Source: Chloroflexota bacterium (GTDB taxonomy: Bacteria > Chloroflexota > Dormibacteria > Dormibacterales > Dormibacteraceae). Taken from it: a stretch of DNA of 64,000 nucleotides. The translations under genes and the position numbers were made by a program. The notes under the pieces are model-generated. The model was given only the letters and a program-made list of their open reading frames with translations, had not been told where the DNA came from and made no database searches. Where the stretch lies: contig VBFH01000024.1 in the NCBI GenBank assembly GCA_005883575.1, forward strand, positions 62,001 through 126,000. The letters run 5' to 3'. Positions 16,370-24,775 of the stretch are shown here, piece by piece; positions within the stretch are counted from its first letter, which is position 1; every line of letters begins with the position of its first letter.

Positions 16370-17194
16370 CTAATCGATCTTGGGGCCGAAGTGCGGCTCG
16401 GCCTGCACCAGCGAGTCGATGTAGCGGAAGCGGTCGTAACGGTGCTGCAGCAGCTCCGACGCAGGCATCTCGAGAAGCGGCTGCATCAGTCGGTGCAGCG
16501 CCTGGTCGAGCGCCTTCGCGGCGGCGTCGTAGTCGGCACTGGCGCTTCCGTCCGGCTCCACCACGACCTCCTCGACCACACCCATCGCCAGGATCTCGCG
16601 CGAGGTCAGCTGCAGCTGCTCCGCGGCCTCGACCTTACGCGAGTTGTCGCGCCACACGATCGACGCGGCAGCCTCCGGCGACGCGACCGAGTAGATGGAG
16701 TTCTCGAGCATGATCACGCGGTCGGCCACGCCCATGCCCAACGCGCCGCCGCTTCCACCCTCGCCGATCACCGCGGCGACGATCGGCACGGGGATGCGGA
16801 ACCACTCCATGATCGCGTGTGCGATCGCGGCGGCGATGCCGCGCTCCTCCGCTCCCGCGCCTGGATAGGCGCCTGGCGTATCGATCAGGGAGAGGATCGG
16901 GAAGCCGAACTTGGCGGCGTGGTGCGCGAGTCGCAGGGCCTTGCGGTAGCCCTCGGGATGCATCATGCCCCAGTTCCGAGCCACTCGTTCCTTTATGCTC
17001 CGGCCCTTCTGGTGGCCGAGAAACACGGTGGTTCGGCCGTGCCAGGTGCCGATCCCGCCGACCAGCGCAGGATCGTCGGCAGAGAGACGATCACCGTGCA
17101 GCTCGATGAAATCGGGCGCCAGGCGGCGAATGTAGTCGAGCGAGTACGGCCGCTGTGGATGGCGGGCGAGCTCGACGATCTCCCAGACGCTCAT
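16370..17194 (-). CDS. accA: Acetyl-CoA carboxylase carboxyltransferase subunit alpha
   Basis: 274 aa. Carboxyltransferase alpha signatures: ELHGDRLSADDPALVGGIG, RNWGMMHPEGYRKALRL, DTPGAYPGAGAEERG, and the oxyanion region EGGSGGALGMGVAD. It transfers the carboxyl group from carboxybiotin to acetyl-CoA with AccD to give malonyl-CoA. The start ATG overlaps the accD stop by 4 bp, giving 1:1 coupling. It is the last gene of the fab-acc cluster. Biotin carrier and carboxylase (accB, accC) are not in this window. Confidence 0.95.
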   Translation of the reverse strand: MSVWEIVELARHPQRPYSLDYIRRLAPDFIELHGDRLSADDPALVGGIGTWHGRTTVFLGHQKGRSIKERVARNWGMMHPEGYRKALRLAHHAAKFGFPILSLIDTPGAYPGAGAEERGIAAAIAHAIMEWFRIPVPIVAAVIGEGGSGGALGMGVADRVIMLENSIYSVASPEAAASIVWRDNSRKVEAAEQLQLTSREILAMGVVEEVVVEPDGSASADYDAAAKALDQALHRLMQPLLEMPASELLQHRYDRFRYIDSLVQAEPHFGPKID

Positions 17195-18024
17195 GGGTAC
17201 ATCTCCAGGAGGTGAGCCAGCAGCGGGCGGAGCTCTGTGCGCGGCAGCACCATGTCCACCTGTCCGTGCGCGAGCTGGAACTCCGCGCTCTGGAATCCGG
17301 GCGGGAGGTCTGCGTAGGTCGCCTGCTTGATCACCCGCGGTCCGGTGAATCCGATCGCGGCACCCGGCTCCGCGATGTTGATGTCGGCCAAGAGGGCGAG
17401 CGATGCGGCAGTGCCGCCAAACGTCGGGTCGGTGAGCACCGAGAAGAACGGCACGCCGGCGCTGTGCAGGCGCCCAACCGCGGCGTTCACCTTGGCGAGC
17501 TGCATCAGTGCCAGCACTCCCTCCTGCATGCGCGCGCCACCCGACGCCGAGATGAGGAGATACGGCGTGCCTGATGAAGCCGCCTGCTCCATGCCGCGGG
17601 CGAGCCGCTCGCCGGCGACGATCGACAGTGTGCCACCCACGAAACCGAAGTCGAAGGCGGCGAGCCAGATCGCCCGGCCGTCGAGCGTGCAGGTGCCCGT
17701 GCGCACCGCTTCGTTCAGGCCATCTTCGAGAAGACGCTCGACAGTCTCCTGGTACGGCTTGGGCACCGTCCAGTTCAGAAGGTCGTGCGAGCGAACATCA
17801 CTCCAGCGCTCCAGCCAGGAGCCCTTGTCGGCCAGGAGCGGGATCCAGACGTCGGCGCCAAGACGGAAGTGATGCCCGCAGTGGGTGCAGACGTAGTTGT
17901 GCGCCCGCAGCTCGTCCGCCGCGAGCGCGATCCCGCACCCTGGACAGTTGGTGGGCAGCAGGATCTCGGGCAGCTCGCCACCCTGGATCGCGACCTCGTC
18001 ACGGTGTCTTTCGAGGATCGCCAT
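17191..18024 (-). CDS. accD: Acetyl-CoA carboxylase carboxyltransferase subunit beta
   Basis: 277 aa. The N-terminal zinc ribbon has C27, C30, C46 and C49; the crotonase-like core shows SASGGARMQEG and DPTFGGTAASLALLAD. ATG 18024 is chosen because GGAGG lies 7 nt upstream; the frame is open to 18111 but that part is not AccD-like. Coupled to accA by overlap. The gap before it (18025-18220) separates it from fabG and could hold its own promoter. Confidence 0.95.
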   Translation of the reverse strand: MAILERHRDEVAIQGGELPEILLPTNCPGCGIALAADELRAHNYVCTHCGHHFRLGADVWIPLLADKGSWLERWSDVRSHDLLNWTVPKPYQETVERLLEDGLNEAVRTGTCTLDGRAIWLAAFDFGFVGGTLSIVAGERLARGMEQAASSGTPYLLISASGGARMQEGVLALMQLAKVNAAVGRLHSAGVPFFSVLTDPTFGGTAASLALLADINIAEPGAAIGFTGPRVIKQATYADLPPGFQSAEFQLAHGQVDMVLPRTELRPLLAHLLEMYP

Positions 18025-18220
18025 CAAGAGCCTCCGATCCCGGAAATCCGACACAGATTCGCGGCATAGACGGCCGGAGCCAAGGAAAGTGTGGCGCCAC
18101 GAGGAGCGCATCGATAGATACGTGACGAGTCAGCGCCGGGCCCGATGACGCCGGCTTCAGTGCCGCAGGCGCCCGGCCGTACAGGCCGCGAAGATGCGGG
18201 GGGCTTCCGGGAGTGGAGGC
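18025..18220. other. Gap between fabG and accD
   Basis: 196 bp with no convincing ORF or RNA gene. On the minus strand, TATCTA-type sequence near 18110-18120 could be a weak promoter for accDA. I see no clear terminator. Confidence 0.3.
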
Positions 18221-18949
18221 TCACAGTGAGAGGCCTCCATCGACGGCGATCACCTGGCCGGTGATGAAGCCGGCGCGCTCCGAGCACAGAAACCCTACCG
18301 CGGCCGCGACCTCTTCAGCCGTGGCTTCGCGCTTGATCGGAGTCATCTTGATCAGCTCGCCGACCATCTCGTCGGTCAGCGAACCCGTGGTTAGCTCGGT
18401 GCGCACGTAGCCCGGTGCGACCGCGTTGCAGGTGATGTTGCGCGATCCGTATTCACGGGCCACGGACTTGGTGAATCCGATCAACCCGGCCTTGGCCGCT
18501 GCGTAGTTCGTCTGCCCCGCGTTGCCAGTCAGACCCACGATCGACGAAATGTTCACGATGCGCCCCCAACGCGCGCGCATCATGCCGGACATGATGGCCG
18601 CCCTGGTGGTGGCGAACGCCGACAGCAAGTCGGTGCGGATCAGGTCTTCCCAATCGGGCGGCGACATCTGGATCAGGAGCTTGTCGCGCACCGCGCCCGC
18701 GTTGTTGACCAGCACGTCGACCCTTCCGATGGCCTTCACCATCGCCTCTACCTGAGCCGGATCGCCAACGTCCGCCTGGTGTGCGATGCCGTCGGGCAGG
18801 GACGCGGCGGTCTCCTCAGCAGCGGTCTTGTCCGATCGATAGTTCACGACCACGCGCGCGCCCATGTCCGCGAGGGCCTGGCTGATGGCGCGGCCGATGC
18901 CCTTGCCGCCGCCCGTGACGAGCGCGGTCTTGCCGTCCAGGTCACCCAC
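18221..18949 (-). CDS. fabG: 3-oxoacyl-ACP reductase
   Basis: 242 aa SDR. NADPH-binding TGGGKGIGRAIS near residue 12, NNAG at 82-85, catalytic Ser in NISSIVG (about 136), Tyr149 and Lys153 in YAAAK. It reduces 3-oxoacyl-ACP in each elongation cycle. GTG start shares one base with the fabD stop. Within the fab cluster the assignment to fatty-acid synthesis rather than another SDR is secure. Confidence 0.95.
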   Translation of the reverse strand: MGDLDGKTALVTGGGKGIGRAISQALADMGARVVVNYRSDKTAAEETAASLPDGIAHQADVGDPAQVEAMVKAIGRVDVLVNNAGAVRDKLLIQMSPPDWEDLIRTDLLSAFATTRAAIMSGMMRARWGRIVNISSIVGLTGNAGQTNYAAAKAGLIGFTKSVAREYGSRNITCNAVAPGYVRTELTTGSLTDEMVGELIKMTPIKREATAEEVAAAVGFLCSERAGFITGQVIAVDGGLSL

Positions 18950-19896
18950 TAAGCGGTTGTCGGTCCCGCGTAATCGACGAAGAGCTCCTCAGCGTTCCAG
19001 GTGTCAACGCCCGGAATGTGCTTGGCGGCCAGGCTCGCGAGCACCCGTCCCGGCCCGAGCTCGACCACCGTGCGCACCTTCATCGCGCGCATTGACACCA
19101 TCGTGCGCGCCCAGTCGACCTGGCGCAGCATCTGCAGGCGAAGCTCCTCCTGCAGCGCCGTCACCGTGCGCAGCGCCTCGCCCGACGCGTTGGCGAGGAT
19201 CGGGATCGAAGGCGCCTTCAGCGGGAGCAAGTCGACCGCCTTGCGGAACGCGGCCGCGGCCGCCTCCATCAAAGGGGTGTGCGCGGCCAGAGGGATGGTC
19301 AGGATCAGGGCCCGGCGCGCGCCGGCCGCGATGGCGAGGCGCTCGGTCTCCTGCACGGCAGGCATCTCGCCGGAGAGGACCAACTGGACGTCCGCGTTCC
19401 GATTCGCGATCCACAGCCGTCCGCGCTCTGCAGCCTGCAGTCGAATGCGCTCGACCTCGGTCTCGTCCAGGCCGACGATCGCGATCATGCCCACGTGCTC
19501 ACCCGCCGCCTCGGCCATGACGCGGCCGCGCTCCTTGACGAGCAGCAGCGCAGTCTCCCACGGGATCGAGCCGGCCGCCGCAAGCGATGCGATCTCGCCC
19601 AAGCTGTGGCCGGCGGTGACGCTCACGTTCTCGAGCCCGTAGCTCTCGCGCCACACCTCGTACGCGGCCCAGCAGACGGTCATCACGCACGGCTGGATGA
19701 CGTCGGTGCGGTTTAGTTCCTCCACCGGGCCCTCGAAGCACAGCTTGCGGATCGGCATCTCGAGCACCTCTTCAGCGCGCTCGAAAACGCGGCGAGCTGC
19801 CGGGTAACGCTCATAGAGGTTTTTGCCCATGCCCGGCCTTTGCACCCCCTGGCCGGGGAACAGAAGCGCGATGGGTCCGGCGAGCTTTATGTCCAT
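18949..19896 (-). CDS. fabD: Malonyl-CoA:ACP transacylase
   Basis: 315 aa. LLFPGQGVQRPGMG at the N-terminus and the serine nucleophile in GHSLGE (Ser98), with QPCVMT and a late AAHTPLMEAA histidine region, are FabD hallmarks. It loads malonate onto ACP for FabH and FabF. It lies 20 bp downstream of fabH and overlaps fabG by one base. Confidence 0.95.
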   Translation of the reverse strand: MDIKLAGPIALLFPGQGVQRPGMGKNLYERYPAARRVFERAEEVLEMPIRKLCFEGPVEELNRTDVIQPCVMTVCWAAYEVWRESYGLENVSVTAGHSLGEIASLAAAGSIPWETALLLVKERGRVMAEAAGEHVGMIAIVGLDETEVERIRLQAAERGRLWIANRNADVQLVLSGEMPAVQETERLAIAAGARRALILTIPLAAHTPLMEAAAAAFRKAVDLLPLKAPSIPILANASGEALRTVTALQEELRLQMLRQVDWARTMVSMRAMKVRTVVELGPGRVLASLAAKHIPGVDTWNAEELFVDYAGPTTA

Positions 19897-19916: not shown

Positions 19917-20954
19917 TCAGGCCCACTTCAGCAGGGTTGCCCCCCAGGTCAAGCCGGACCCGAACCCTGCGAGCAGGACGTGGTCACCGGGCTTGACGCG
20001 ACCCTTGCGAATGGCCTCTTCCAGCGCCAGCGGGATGGAAGCGCTGGAGGTGTTGCCGAATTCGTCGATGTTGATGGCGACGCGCTCGATGGGCAGGCCG
20101 ATGCGGCGGGCGGCGGCGTCGATGATGCGGTAGTTCGCCTGGTGCGGCACCCACAGGTCGATCTCGTCCAGCGCGACGCCGGCCGCGCTGCACACCTCAC
20201 TCGCCTGGCGGATGAAGATGTCGACCGCAAACTTGAACACGTCGGGGCCGACCATATTGATGAATGGCGTGGCGTCCTTCGCCGCATAGGCGCCCTTCTC
20301 GATGTTGCCGCAGGTCACCTGCGCGTAGCCGCGGCCGTCCGAACCGAGACACCAGCTGAGGAAACCGGCGCCCTTCGGCGCCGCCCGGACGACCGCCGCG
20401 CCCGCCCCGTCACCGAAGATGACGGCGGTGCCGCGGTCGGAGTAGTCGAGCATCCGCGAGAGGACCTCGGCGCCAATGACGAGCACGGTGTCAGCGCGCT
20501 CGGTGGCAATGAACGAGTCCGCGATGGAAAGCGCGTAGACAAAGCTGGTGCACGCGGCCAGTGTGTCCCATGCGACCGCGCCGGGCGCGTCGAGCTCGTT
20601 CTGCACCCGGCACGCGACCGAGGGAAACGGGCCGTCGGGTGAAGAGGTACCGACCAGGATCATGTCCAGCTCCTGGGCCGCGATGCCGGCTGCATCGAGG
20701 GCGGCTCTCGCGGCTCTGGTGGCCATCTCGAACGTCGTCGTGCCCGGCTCCGCAATGTGGCGGCGGTGGATGCCGGTGCGCTCGGTGATCCACTTGTCAG
20801 AGGTGTCCATCATCGTCTCGAGGTCAAAGTTCGAGATGATCTTCTCCGGCGCGTAGACCCCGACGCCCGCGATCGCGCTCTGGCGACCCTTCGCCTTGAA
20901 CGAGCGGAGCGGCAGAGCGTCCGACCGAGTGCGGTAGTTGGTGGTGATGGCCAT
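19917..20954 (-). CDS. fabH: Beta-ketoacyl-ACP synthase III
   Basis: 345 aa. The Cys-His-Asn triad is visible: Cys about 135 in LAACTSFVYAL, His in LWVPHQANYRI, Asn in EFGNTSSASIP. It starts fatty-acid chains by condensing an acyl-CoA with malonyl-ACP. A non-conserved N-terminal extension of about 20 residues precedes the core. It begins 5 bp after the acpP stop. Confidence 0.95.
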   Translation of the reverse strand: MAITTNYRTRSDALPLRSFKAKGRQSAIAGVGVYAPEKIISNFDLETMMDTSDKWITERTGIHRRHIAEPGTTTFEMATRAARAALDAAGIAAQELDMILVGTSSPDGPFPSVACRVQNELDAPGAVAWDTLAACTSFVYALSIADSFIATERADTVLVIGAEVLSRMLDYSDRGTAVIFGDGAGAAVVRAAPKGAGFLSWCLGSDGRGYAQVTCGNIEKGAYAAKDATPFINMVGPDVFKFAVDIFIRQASEVCSAAGVALDEIDLWVPHQANYRIIDAAARRIGLPIERVAINIDEFGNTSSASIPLALEEAIRKGRVKPGDHVLLAGFGSGLTWGATLLKWA

Positions 20955-20959
20955 CGGCG

Positions 20960-21217
20960 CTAGGCCTCCAGCCGCTCAGCGGTCTTCTGCTCCAGGAACT
21001 TCCACAGGTCGGCGATGACCTTCATCTTCTCGAGCTCCTCTTCGGGCAGCTCCACGTCGTACTTGTCCTCGATCGCGGCGATCAGCTCGACGAGGTCGAG
21101 CGAGTCCGCCGCGAGGTCGCGCTGAAAGCTCTTGTCCATCTGGACCTGGTCGGGGTCGATGCCGAGGATCTCCGCCGAGAGATCCTGCAGTTCCTTGAAA
21201 TCGAGCTGGGTTGCCAT
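20960..21217 (-). CDS. acpP: Acyl carrier protein
   Basis: 85 aa. The phosphopantetheine serine is in DLAADSLDLVELI, followed by the acidic recognition helix (VELPEEELEKMKVIADLW). It shuttles intermediates between the Fab enzymes. AGGAGG upstream serves either TTG 21223 (5-nt spacing) or ATG 21217 (11 nt); I report the ATG. It lies between fabF and fabH. Confidence 0.95.
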   Translation of the reverse strand: MATQLDFKELQDLSAEILGIDPDQVQMDKSFQRDLAADSLDLVELIAAIEDKYDVELPEEELEKMKVIADLWKFLEQKTAERLEA

Positions 21218-21232
21218 TGGCAATCCGTCCTC

Positions 21233-22507
21233 CTAGTTTTTCGCGCCCAGTGGGCTCTTCTTGATGACGAGGGTCGCGTTGTGGCCGCCGAACCCGAAAG
21301 AGTTCGAGATCGCCACGTTGACGTCCGCCTTGCGCGCCTTGTTGGGCACGTAGTCGAGGTCGCAGTCGGGGTCGGGGTCGTCGAGGTTGATGGTCGGCGG
21401 CAGTAGCCCCCGCTCCAGAGCCAGCACACAGGCGGCCGCCTCGATCGCGCCCGCGGCGCCGAGGAGGTGGCCGTGCACCGACTTGGTCGAGCTGACCGCC
21501 AGCTCAAATGCGTGGTCGCCGAACACGGACTTGATCGCTTTGGTCTCCGCCACGTCGCCGAGCTTGGTCGACGTGCCGTGGGCGTTGACGTAGCCAACGT
21601 CGTTGGGGTCGACGCCGCTCGTCTCGAGGGCATGACGCATCGCTCGCGTCGCGCCCTTGCCCTCCGGCTGCGGGGCCGTGAAGTGGTACATGTCGGCGCT
21701 CGCGCCGTAGCCGGCGATCTCGGCCATGATCCGGGCGCCGCGGGCCTTCGCGTGCTCGAGGTCTTCGAGGACGAACATCACCGACCCCTCGCCCATGACA
21801 AATCCGTCGCGGCCGAGGTCGAAGGGACGGCAAGCCTTCTCCGGCTCGTCGTTGCGCTCGCTCGTCGCCTTGATCTGGCAGAAAGCACCCATCGTCAGCG
21901 GCGTGATGGTTGCTTCCGAGCCACCGGCAAGCATGGCTACGGCGTCGCCACGCTTTATGATCTCCGACGCCTCGCCGATGCCGTGAGCGCTGGATGCGCA
22001 GGCGCTGACGATGGCGTAATTGGGCCCGCCGGCTTGAGTGTGAATGGCGACGACGCCGGCCGCCATGTCGGCGATCATCATCGGCACCGTGAACGGGCTT
22101 ATCCGCTTGGGCCCGCGCTCCAACAGCGCGGTGTGACTTTTCTCGATCTCCTCCATGCCGCCGATGCCCGAGCTCACAATCACGCCGACGTCGTCCGGGT
22201 TCATCTGGGCGGGGTCGAGGCCCGACTGCGCCAGCGCCTGCTTGGAAGCCGCGAGCGCGAACTGGCAGTAGCGGCCGATGTGGCGGGCGGTCTTGCGATC
22301 CATGTAGTCCTCGGCGTTGAAGCCCTTGACCTCGGCCGCGATCTTGGTGTCGAAGTTGGCGGTGTCAAAGCGGGTGATGCGGCCGACTCCGGAGACGCCC
22401 TCGACCATGTTCGACCACACAGTCTCCATGTCGTTTCCGATCGGCGTGATAAAACCGATGCCGGTGACGGCCACGCGGCGACCGTTGGATTTTGGCTCTT
22501 GCGTCAT
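21233..22507 (-). CDS. fabF: Beta-ketoacyl-ACP synthase II
   Basis: 424 aa. RRVAVTGIGFITPIGNDM starts the thiolase fold; the nucleophile is Cys in VSACASSAHG, and the two histidines are in NAHGTSTKLGD and SVHGHLLGAAG. It elongates acyl-ACP. I take ATG 22507; another ATG at 22567 would sit almost inside the operator-like repeat at 22572-22592, and its extra 20 residues look non-conserved. First structural gene of the cluster, directly downstream of the PucR/FasR-like gene. Confidence 0.94.
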   Translation of the reverse strand: MTQEPKSNGRRVAVTGIGFITPIGNDMETVWSNMVEGVSGVGRITRFDTANFDTKIAAEVKGFNAEDYMDRKTARHIGRYCQFALAASKQALAQSGLDPAQMNPDDVGVIVSSGIGGMEEIEKSHTALLERGPKRISPFTVPMMIADMAAGVVAIHTQAGGPNYAIVSACASSAHGIGEASEIIKRGDAVAMLAGGSEATITPLTMGAFCQIKATSERNDEPEKACRPFDLGRDGFVMGEGSVMFVLEDLEHAKARGARIMAEIAGYGASADMYHFTAPQPEGKGATRAMRHALETSGVDPNDVGYVNAHGTSTKLGDVAETKAIKSVFGDHAFELAVSSTKSVHGHLLGAAGAIEAAACVLALERGLLPPTINLDDPDPDCDLDYVPNKARKADVNVAISNSFGFGGHNATLVIKKSPLGAKN

Positions 22508-22571
22508 AAACCCAGCATACGGACGCCGCGTCGAATCGGCACCGGCGCGAAGTGGCAAAAATTGCATGATT

Positions 22572-22592
22572 CTTTGGACCCACTGTCCAAAG
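22572..22592. promoter_or_regulatory. Candidate FasR-type operator in front of fabF
   Basis: A perfect 21-bp inverted repeat, CTTTGGAC-N5-GTCCAAAG, between the regulator stop (22599) and the fabF start. Its layout and most bases match the repeat upstream of the regulator gene itself (23907-23927). No T-tract follows, which argues against a simple terminator. Confidence 0.65.
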
Positions 22593-22598
22593 GCGATC

Positions 22599-23879
22599 TC
22601 AGAGGAGCTTGCGGAGATCGAGCGCGAGCTGCAGCCGAAGCCGGGTCGCGGGCACGTCGAGGTCGCCCCCCAGTAGCTCCTTCAACTTCTCCAGCCGGTA
22701 AAGCACCGTGTGTCGGTGCAGGCCCAGGGCGCCGGCGGCGTCCTTGACCGAGCCCTTCGCTAGGTACGCCTCCAGGGTCTCCAGCAGCTGTTCGCGGTTC
22801 CGGACCTTGGGGTCCGTCAGGCGCCCGAGGCTGTGAGTGACGAAGCGCTCGGCGAGCAACGGGTTCTGCGCGAGCACCAGGTGCGGGATCACATCGTCAT
22901 GCCTGTGCGCCACTGAGTCGGGTCTCAGCTTGCGCCCGGCTTCGAATGCCTGCTGCGCCTCCAGGTAGGAGCGCGACACTCCGTGCAGACCTGGGTGATA
23001 GCCGCCGATGCCGGCGCGGACGCGGGCGCCGAGCTGCCCCGCCCGCTGCTCCACCTGATCCTGCAGCTGGGCCACGAACTGACGCGCCGACTCGGCGTCG
23101 GCGAGCGTCTCGGCCGGCCACAGGACGACGAGCGTGCTCGGATCGGTGGCCAGCGTCAGGGTTCCTCGCCTCAGCTCGAGCGACTCGGTCACCTCGGAGA
23201 GCGCCTGGCCGCCGCGCTCGCCGTCCCGGTTGCCCATGACGAGCTTGCAGACGACCGCGACGTAGCCGGTGGCGATCAGGGGAGTGTTGATCGCCAGCGC
23301 CTGGCGCTGGAGCTCGAGCTCGGTATCGAAGTTGTCGCTGATCAGGGCGTGGAAGAGCCGCGCGTGAGCGCGGGTGCCACGCTGCATGTGCTGCTCGCGA
23401 GCGTGCAGATACGTTTTGGTGACCTCGGCCGCCACCTGGTCAAGCGCGGCGAAAACGTAGTTGGCAACGAGCATGATCGCCTCGGGAGTCGCCTCCGAGT
23501 GGCCACGCCAGGCGCGCAGGATCTCATCCCATGCGACGCGCGCGGCCATGCGGTAGGCGGCGAGGATGGGCTCGACCGATTGGCTGCTCCGGGCCTGGAG
23601 GATGCCCAGCTGCGCGACGCGCCGCAGCTCTTCCTGCGTCGCGGGCCGGGCTTCACGCGCGGTGGCGAGGAAGAGATCAAGGCCGGCCTCGCACGCCCGG
23701 ACGATGGCGTCGCGCTGCGGCGGGACGCCGGTTGAGCTGTCCCAGCGGACGAGCGTCACGACAGCCCGAGCCATATGCCTGGCCATACCCGCGTGACGGC
23801 GTTCCAGTTCGTCGATCAAGCCCTGTGGCAGCCGCGGGGCGGCTCTCGGCGTCTTGGACCTGGAGGCCAACTTCACCAC
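22599..23879 (-). CDS. PucR/CdaR-type regulator, FasR-like, next to the fab cluster
   Basis: 426 aa. The C-terminus is a PucR-type HTH_30 domain: LLETLEAYLAKGSVKDAAGALGLHRHTVLYRLEKLKELLG (split motif, about residues 365-405). The N-terminal two-thirds is a helical sensor with a GGDEF-like middle domain typical of CdaR/PucR. In Streptomyces, FasR next to fabD-fabH-acpP-fabF is described as this kind of regulator and activates fatty-acid synthesis; gene order differs here. The start is GTG 23879 (or 23876). TATAGT at 23886-23891 lies 6 nt upstream, so the mRNA is probably leaderless, and a 21-bp palindrome overlaps the -35 region, suggesting autoregulation. Confidence 0.85.
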   Translation of the reverse strand: MVKLASRSKTPRAAPRLPQGLIDELERRHAGMARHMARAVVTLVRWDSSTGVPPQRDAIVRACEAGLDLFLATAREARPATQEELRRVAQLGILQARSSQSVEPILAAYRMAARVAWDEILRAWRGHSEATPEAIMLVANYVFAALDQVAAEVTKTYLHAREQHMQRGTRAHARLFHALISDNFDTELELQRQALAINTPLIATGYVAVVCKLVMGNRDGERGGQALSEVTESLELRRGTLTLATDPSTLVVLWPAETLADAESARQFVAQLQDQVEQRAGQLGARVRAGIGGYHPGLHGVSRSYLEAQQAFEAGRKLRPDSVAHRHDDVIPHLVLAQNPLLAERFVTHSLGRLTDPKVRNREQLLETLEAYLAKGSVKDAAGALGLHRHTVLYRLEKLKELLGGDLDVPATRLRLQLALDLRKLL

Positions 23880-23885
23880 GCCTCG

Positions 23886-23891
23886 ACTATA
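23886..23891 (-). promoter_or_regulatory. -10 box of the fasR-like gene (leaderless)
   Basis: TATAGT on the minus strand, followed by CGAGGC and then the GTG start codon. Transcription would begin at or next to the start codon. Confidence 0.55.
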
Positions 23892-23906
23892 CGTGGACTC
23901 CGACGG

Positions 23907-23927
23907 CCTTCGACACCGCGTCGAAGG
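23907..23927. promoter_or_regulatory. Candidate FasR-type operator in front of the regulator gene
   Basis: A perfect 21-bp inverted repeat, CCTTCGAC-N5-GTCGAAGG, whose promoter-proximal arm sits where a -35 box would be for the TATAGT -10. Aligns with the fabF-side repeat as CYTTSGAC-N5-GTCSAARG. Confidence 0.65.
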
Positions 23928-24034: not shown

Positions 24035-24775
24035 CTAGCGGTGCTTTGTCACGAAGGCCAGCATCCGCCGCCAGGCGTCGTCGCAGGCATCCTTCCACTG
24101 CTCGTAGCTGCGGTCGAAAAAGCTGTGCGGCGCGCCTTCATACACATGCTCCTCATGAGTCACGCCCGCTGCCGTGAGCGCACGCTCGAACTCCTTCGAC
24201 TGTTCAGGCGTCGTCGCGGCGTCGGCGCCAGCGACCATGACCAGCAATGGGGCTTTCATTTTTGGGATTAGGGGCTCGCTGCGCATCGGCCTCCCATAAA
24301 ACCCGATGCATCCGCTCAGGTCTGGATGCATAGCCGATTGGTTCCATGAATTGGACCCGCCAAAGCAAAACCCGACCGTGAAGACGGACTTGACCGCGCC
24401 TCCATCCATCGACTTGAGATGTGCAATCGCCGCACCGACGTCCGCGGCGATGTTTTCGGTCGTCGTCCTCTGCACATGCGGCATGTAGTCGAAGGCATCG
24501 CTGCGATCGCTGGTCTCGGCGGTCCGGGCGAAGTAGTCGATCGCCACCGCGTCGATGCCCGCTTCCGCGAATCGCTGGGCTAGCTCCTTGAAGAACTGAT
24601 GCAGGCCGCGCACATCAGGCAGCACGACCATGCCCGCGCCGGTGGGTTTTGCCGCCCGCGCGAAGTAGGCGGCGAACTTTGTGCCGTCAGACGAGGTCAG
24701 GTCGATATCACCCTGGTCGGCGGCGCCGCCGCTCACGGGCGGCAGAGGCGGACGCGCGTCATCTCGGTAGCACAT
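24035..24775 (-). CDS. Dienelactone hydrolase family alpha/beta hydrolase
   Basis: 246 aa. Nucleophile Cys in GFCFGG (in place of the Ser elbow), acid Asp in AGADAATTPEQ and His in GAPHSFFDR give the Cys-Asp-His triad of the DLH family. LPDVRGLHQFFKELAQRFAEAG is the usual N-terminal segment. DLH enzymes open dienelactones in chloroaromatic breakdown, but many relatives have other ester substrates and no aromatic genes are near. Divergent from the DinB-like gene. Confidence 0.88.
   Translation of the reverse strand: MCYRDDARPPLPPVSGGAADQGDIDLTSSDGTKFAAYFARAAKPTGAGMVVLPDVRGLHQFFKELAQRFAEAGIDAVAIDYFARTAETSDRSDAFDYMPHVQRTTTENIAADVGAAIAHLKSMDGGAVKSVFTVGFCFGGSNSWNQSAMHPDLSGCIGFYGRPMRSEPLIPKMKAPLLVMVAGADAATTPEQSKEFERALTAAGVTHEEHVYEGAPHSFFDRSYEQWKDACDDAWRRMLAFVTKHR

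Follow-up and report, generated by a model that had tools for sequence, protein, structure and literature searches.

The closest described systems to the locus analysed here are FasR of Streptomyces coelicolor (SCO2386), an activator of fabD-fabH-acpP-fabF, and MabR of Mycobacterium tuberculosis (Rv2242), the mycobacterial orthologue of FasR. The operator of MabR is TTTTGT-N9-ACAAAA, its binding is modulated by long-chain acyl-CoAs, and FasR of S. coelicolor activates from highly similar repeats located at about -67 (PMC5541348). MabR forms tetramers, and its architecture, which combines a globin domain, a GGDEF-like domain and a PucR HTH, was described in 2024 as largely restricted to the Actinomycetia (PMC11617747). 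A further point of reference is BAD_0249 of Bifidobacterium adolescentis, a PucR-HTH regulator of known structure (3onq). No literature on lipid regulation in the Dormibacterota was found.

The window, a 64-kb stretch of a 3.6-Mb Dormibacterota MAG, encodes a PucR-type regulator directly upstream of a FAS II operon (table 1). The fab genes overlap or are separated by short spaces only, and the gap between fabG and accD is about 110 nt, so that a single transcript through accA is likely. The preliminary description had noted that the gene order differs from that of the FasR cluster and that fabG-accD-accA is appended; both are seen in the window, and the order regulator-fabF-acpP-fabH-fabD-fabG-accD is kept across the family. 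The relatives used for comparison are Dormibacterota MAGs, many of them deposited as Chloroflexi, and were drawn from two genome collections that partly duplicate loci; from the footprinting onward, counts refer to loci with distinct upstream sequence. Upstream of the regulator, and in the same orientation, is a dienelactone-hydrolase-like gene (24035-24775), which nearly all relatives have at this place. One genome bin (G001) holds two regulator loci, on contigs C47 and C101 (L005/L039 and L122/L044), which match the window at 91% and 87%; the locus is duplicated or else the bin is mixed.

Table 1. Positions of the genes, promoter elements and putative operators of the regulator-fab-acc locus in the window.
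Feature	Position	Strand	Remark
O1, upstream operator of the fabF promoter, CTTTGGAC-N5-GTCCAAAG	22572..22592	.	centre 22582, ~-75 from inferred start
O2, weaker operator-like site, ATTCGAC-GCGGC-GTCCGTA	22518..22536	-	centre 22527, 55 bp from O1, overlaps fabF -10
Regulator-promoter operator, CCTTCGAC-N5-GTCGAAGG	23907..23927	.	centre ~-38, overlaps -35 region
fabF promoter -10 box, TATGCT	22514..22519	-	6 nt before ATG
Regulator promoter -10 box, TATAGT	23886..23891	-	6 nt before GTG
PucR-type regulator, predicted non-heme globin-like + GGDEF-like + PucR HTH	22599..23879	-	GTG start 23879
fabF	21233..22507	-	
acpP	20960..21223	-	
fabH	19917..20954	-	
fabD	18949..19896	-	
fabG	18221..18949	-	
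accD	17191..18111	-	
accA	16370..17194	-	

Pfam places the regulator in the PucR family: a C-terminal PucR HTH (PF13556) scored 72 bits against a cut-off of 27, and a GGDEF-like domain (PF17853) before it scored 60.6 bits against 24.5. These matches, together with the domain set of MabR, bear out the PucR-type label given earlier. No hot-dog effector domain, the feature of the malonyl-CoA responsive repressor FapR, was found among its Pfam domains, and the AdeR, CdaR and Rv1453 models of NCBIfam match far below cut-off. In an AlphaFold2 model (mean pLDDT 86), residues 10-160 match the N-terminal MabR fragment 9fb1, a non-heme globin-like domain, with a Z of 12.4, and the RsbR/pXO sporulation-inhibitor globins with a Z of 12.9-13.9; as helical folds inflate Z, this globin-domain match was given moderate weight. 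GGDEF folds match residues 163-331, and the C-terminal part of the model matches both PucR-HTH structures available for matching, MabR 9f80 (Z 12.1) and BAD_0249 3onq. It should be noted that PucR structures are few in the PDB, where MabR/Rv2242 is the only match of the single regulator sequence and the best match of its profile (E 5.9e-16), with about 22% identity over the C-terminal part. The regulator is a PucR family protein of MabR architecture and most likely works in the manner of FasR.

The two 21-bp palindromes first reported for this locus are exact and perfect: CTTTGGAC-CCACT-GTCCAAAG before fabF, designated O1, and CCTTCGAC-ACCGC-GTCGAAGG in the promoter of the regulator. Their proposed consensus, CYTTSGAC-N5-GTCSAARG, fits both sites and nothing else in the genome, with two matches in the 64-kb window as well as in the whole 3.6-Mb MAG and zero matches of its reversed control in either. 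As bare structures, perfect 8-N5-8 palindromes are common enough here (7 in the window against 2.9 expected, with a maximum of 7, in 60 dinucleotide shuffles) that the argument is carried by pairing and conservation. A larger regulon in the same genome was considered and rejected: with up to one mismatch, TTSGACN5GTCSWAA gave 20 forward sites and its reversed control 17; judged by the ORFs alone, none of the sites inspected resembled a lipid-gene promoter.

Phylogenetic footprinting, which the preliminary description had suggested as a check, showed the operator to be kept before fabF throughout the family. In 28 family fabF promoters, aligned on the -10 box independently of the palindrome, the 7-nt arms of O1 carry 0.8-2.0 bits per column and the 5-nt spacer 0.1-0.4 bits, and complementarity at the O1 centre reaches 0.77, by far the highest of the region (mean 0.26, sd 0.10). 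The family form of the site is TTTGGAC-N5-GTCCAAA, and its conservation across relatives excludes a chance origin of the putative operators. Bases 1, 2 and 6 of the fabF -10 box are invariant in the same promoters, and the box lies 6-7 nt upstream of the fabF start codon in most relatives; the TATAGT of the regulator promoter lies about 6 nt before the regulator start codon there. Given this proximity, here and in most relatives, the transcripts from the fabF (22507) and regulator (23879) promoters are likely leaderless in this Dormibacterota group, which would centre O1 near -75. The family fabF promoters also share a further conserved block, TTTTnCCAC (1.4-2.0 bits in most columns), some 20 nt downstream of O1; its window copy, TTTTGCCAC, is at 22552-22560 on the minus strand. 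An UP-like element or a binding site for a different regulator could account for it.

The position of O1, which begins 7 nt past the regulator stop and could form an 8-bp hairpin, also allows it to be read as the transcription terminator of the regulator gene. Against this, no T-run follows directly, the terminator scan was negative and the folding equals that of shuffles (z 0.02); moreover, O1 keeps a constant distance from the -10 box (62-64 nt from the O1 centre in all promoters, sd 0.4) and a variable one from the stop codon (sd 7.9), and the motif is also present upstream of the regulator, of fabH, and of fabF genes that have no regulator next to them. With scan, folding and spacing all opposed to it, a terminator is so improbable that this reading was dropped.

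To what extent the site follows the fatty-acid genes can be seen in the relatives. Among 61 of these, the strict form TTTGGACN5GTCCWAA occurs at 18 distinct sites, of which 16 are at fabF (for one of them, which immediately follows a second copy of the regulator, the contig ends and fabF itself is unseen), one lies before a relocated fabH (G027), and one is unrelated, from a family in which no full-length relative of the regulator occurs. G036, a further related genome, has a near-perfect site before fabH as well, and where other genes lie between the regulator and fabF (L126, L127), the regulator and fabF each retain a site. When one mismatch was allowed across 41 family genomes, nearly every site belonged to fabF, fabH or the regulator, and those left over were about as numerous as the matches of the reversed control; the frequent occurrence away from lipid genes that had been named beforehand as evidence against the proposal was thus not observed. 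The few off-target candidates for additional regulon members, a LysM/CHAP protein, a luciferase-like monooxygenase, MoxR and an MFS protein, were rejected, as their count is about that of the control and they are unshared beyond sister species. The site before the LysM/CHAP protein gene is an operator-like palindrome, TTCGGAC-N5-GTCCAAA, in two sister species (L168 1827 and L169 2354).

These distributions also bear on the question of which protein reads the operators. The genome encodes three further clear PucR-HTH proteins, and the pairing of regulator and operator, which we infer, rests on gene linkage and the analogy to MabR; the PucR-type gene could be a mere neighbour of sites that serve a different regulator. 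Family f4 is in line with such a reading: its fabF (65% identity) adjoins an oxidoreductase instead of the regulator, of which only a relative of about 30% is encoded, elsewhere in the genome, and yet it carries TTAGGAC-N5-GTCCTAG, with both arms altered together, symmetry kept, and no other exact site in any of the 4 genomes. We nevertheless consider a different regulator improbable, as the promoter of the regulator itself has the site as well, the length and spacing of the site equal those of the MabR operator, and the family f3 genomes (L134, L136), whose regulator matches are C-terminal and partial only, show no site before fabF. Distant regulator relatives (25-34% identity) were also observed in family f2 (L065, L067, L070-L073), where they are divergent from a neighbour gene; of four such neighbours scanned, two (L067, L073) score as a ferritin-like acyl-ACP desaturase (FA_desaturase_2). 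Several of the f2 loci have TTTGGCC-N5-G sites between the two genes, and a second lipid regulon under the same type of regulator is possible.

The promoter of the regulator itself carries a weaker version of the site in most relatives, TCGAC-N5-GTCCWA, centred mostly 25 nt (range 23-27) upstream of TATAGT; the perfect symmetry of the window copy is thus peculiar to this genome. The overlap of the window copy with the -35 region, pointed out previously, agrees with its centre relative to the inferred start. The accompanying claim of autocontrol held in part: most loci have the weaker site, but three loci of the same genus (L006, L009, L044) lack it while retaining the -10 box, so that autocontrol is not universal. 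Compared with O1, the spacing is less strict, a pattern that suits autorepression by steric hindrance better than activation, and the regulator may repress its own gene through the site over the -35 region.

A second site in the fabF promoter, O2, was overlooked in the preliminary description and recurs in related promoters. With a matrix derived from O1, the best further match was found 54-56 bp downstream of O1, over the -10 box, in 35 of 40 promoters, in the form (A/T)TTSGMC-N5-GTCCGTA; in the window promoter it stands out against shuffles (p = 0.005). O2 is strong in promoters of other genera in which O1 has decayed (L123, L124, L125, L128 and L129), being nearly perfect in L123, L125 and L129 (TTTSGAC-N5-GTCCGTA), and the five weakest-O1 promoters have a strong O2; conversely, O2 scores below zero in L024, L025 and L050, where O1 is retained. 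Over all promoters, the negative correlation between the strengths of O1 and O2 is not significant (rho -0.22, p 0.20).

It should be noted that the right half of O2 abuts the -10 box, so that promoter function may account for some of the conservation of O2. There is a considerable chance that O2 is no operator, with GTCCGTA extending the -10 element and the left half belonging to a weak -35, a reading that covers O2 only and is compatible with our view of the two palindromes: GTCC directly precedes the conserved TA of the -10 box, and the left halves are often degenerate, with low matrix scores. Arguing for an operator instead, the left half TTSGMC forms an island of conservation amid less conserved columns, the near-perfect copies stand in promoters with a decayed O1, and the offset from O1 is held within three positions in the majority of promoters noted above. 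On balance we lean towards O2 being an operator.

Taken together, the earlier proposal is well supported as to the nature of the repeats and the genes that they serve. We consider it probable that the regulator, which resembles FasR and MabR, switches on the fab-acc genes from O1, uses O2 as a brake and represses its own gene. Sequence, conservation, spacing, specificity and gene order are observed here and the domain folds are predicted, whereas binding, the sign of regulation, the role of O2, the ligand and the extent of the operon are inferred. A dimer of the regulator would bind O1 and, from a class-I activator position relative to the leaderless fabF start (compare -67 for FasR), would activate fabF-acpP-fabH-fabD-fabG-accD-accA. 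At higher occupancy, binding to the weaker O2 would limit or shut the promoter, possibly with a tetramer bridging O1 and O2, and the site over the -35 region would keep the regulator gene itself in check. The protein probably responds to a long-chain acyl-CoA or acyl-ACP, with either the globin or the GGDEF-like domain as the sensor.

The same regulator and sites could also act in pure repression, with O1 and O2 bound jointly and the promoter looped until a lipid signal releases it. A pair of sites, one upstream and one on the promoter, would fit this too, as do the fixed 55 bp between O1 and the O2 over the -10 box, the overlap of the regulator-promoter site with the -35 region, and the tetramers formed by MabR (PMC11617747). 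However, O1 is far stronger and better kept than O2 and stands at the position from which FasR and MabR activate (PMC5541348), it persists in the genera in which O2 scores below zero, and the fabF promoter has a poor -35 (the scan returned no sigma-70-like promoter), as is seen in activator-dependent promoters. Pure repression by looping is therefore unlikely, and activation from O1 with O2 as a brake is the reading we follow.

If so, the regulator and its kept operators appear to constitute the switch for membrane-lipid production in the Dormibacterota, an almost uncultured soil phylum in which a regulon for membrane-lipid synthesis (operator, promoter and regulator) could be defined by sequence alone. 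The two-site promoter suggests a route by which one regulator may both raise and limit fatty-acid synthesis. More speculatively, and as a proposal that may well not hold, a single MabR-like protein with operators 55 bp apart, at an activator position and on the -10 box, would both turn on and cap fatty-acid synthesis, possibly as a bridging tetramer, in an arrangement that is old in the Dormibacterota. In the literature consulted here, such a two-operator arrangement is unreported for the FasR/MabR family. The many natural variants of the operator provide material to probe both DNA recognition and the mechanism of activation.

In comparison with the known systems, the regulator shares with FasR the PucR family, a gene directly before the fab genes, and an inverted-repeat operator upstream at activator distance (about -75 here and -67 in FasR). 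The cluster differs, with fabD-fabH-acpP-fabF in Streptomyces and fabF-acpP-fabH-fabD followed by fabG-accD-accA here, as does the second site overlapping the -10 box. MabR has the same three domains and is likewise placed before the FAS II operon, and its operator and O1 are both 21-bp inverted repeats of the form 6-N9-6 with a TTTG core in each arm; the bases differ in part, the arms being TTTTGT-N9-ACAAAA in MabR and cTTTGG-N9-CCAAAg in O1. The recognition regions differ as well (HPNTVRYRL in MabR and HRHTVLYRL here), which may explain the altered arm bases. BAD_0249 has a similar C-terminal GGDEF-like and HTH fold; it has no link to FAS II genes in the evidence considered. The MabR architecture is largely actinomycete by report (PMC11617747), and the present regulator is from the Dormibacterota. 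This brings the globin-GGDEF-PucR design, by report essentially an actinomycete one and indispensable to mycobacteria, to another phylum. A switch of the FasR/MabR type is already known from Streptomyces and Mycobacterium; what looks new here is the second site on the promoter itself.
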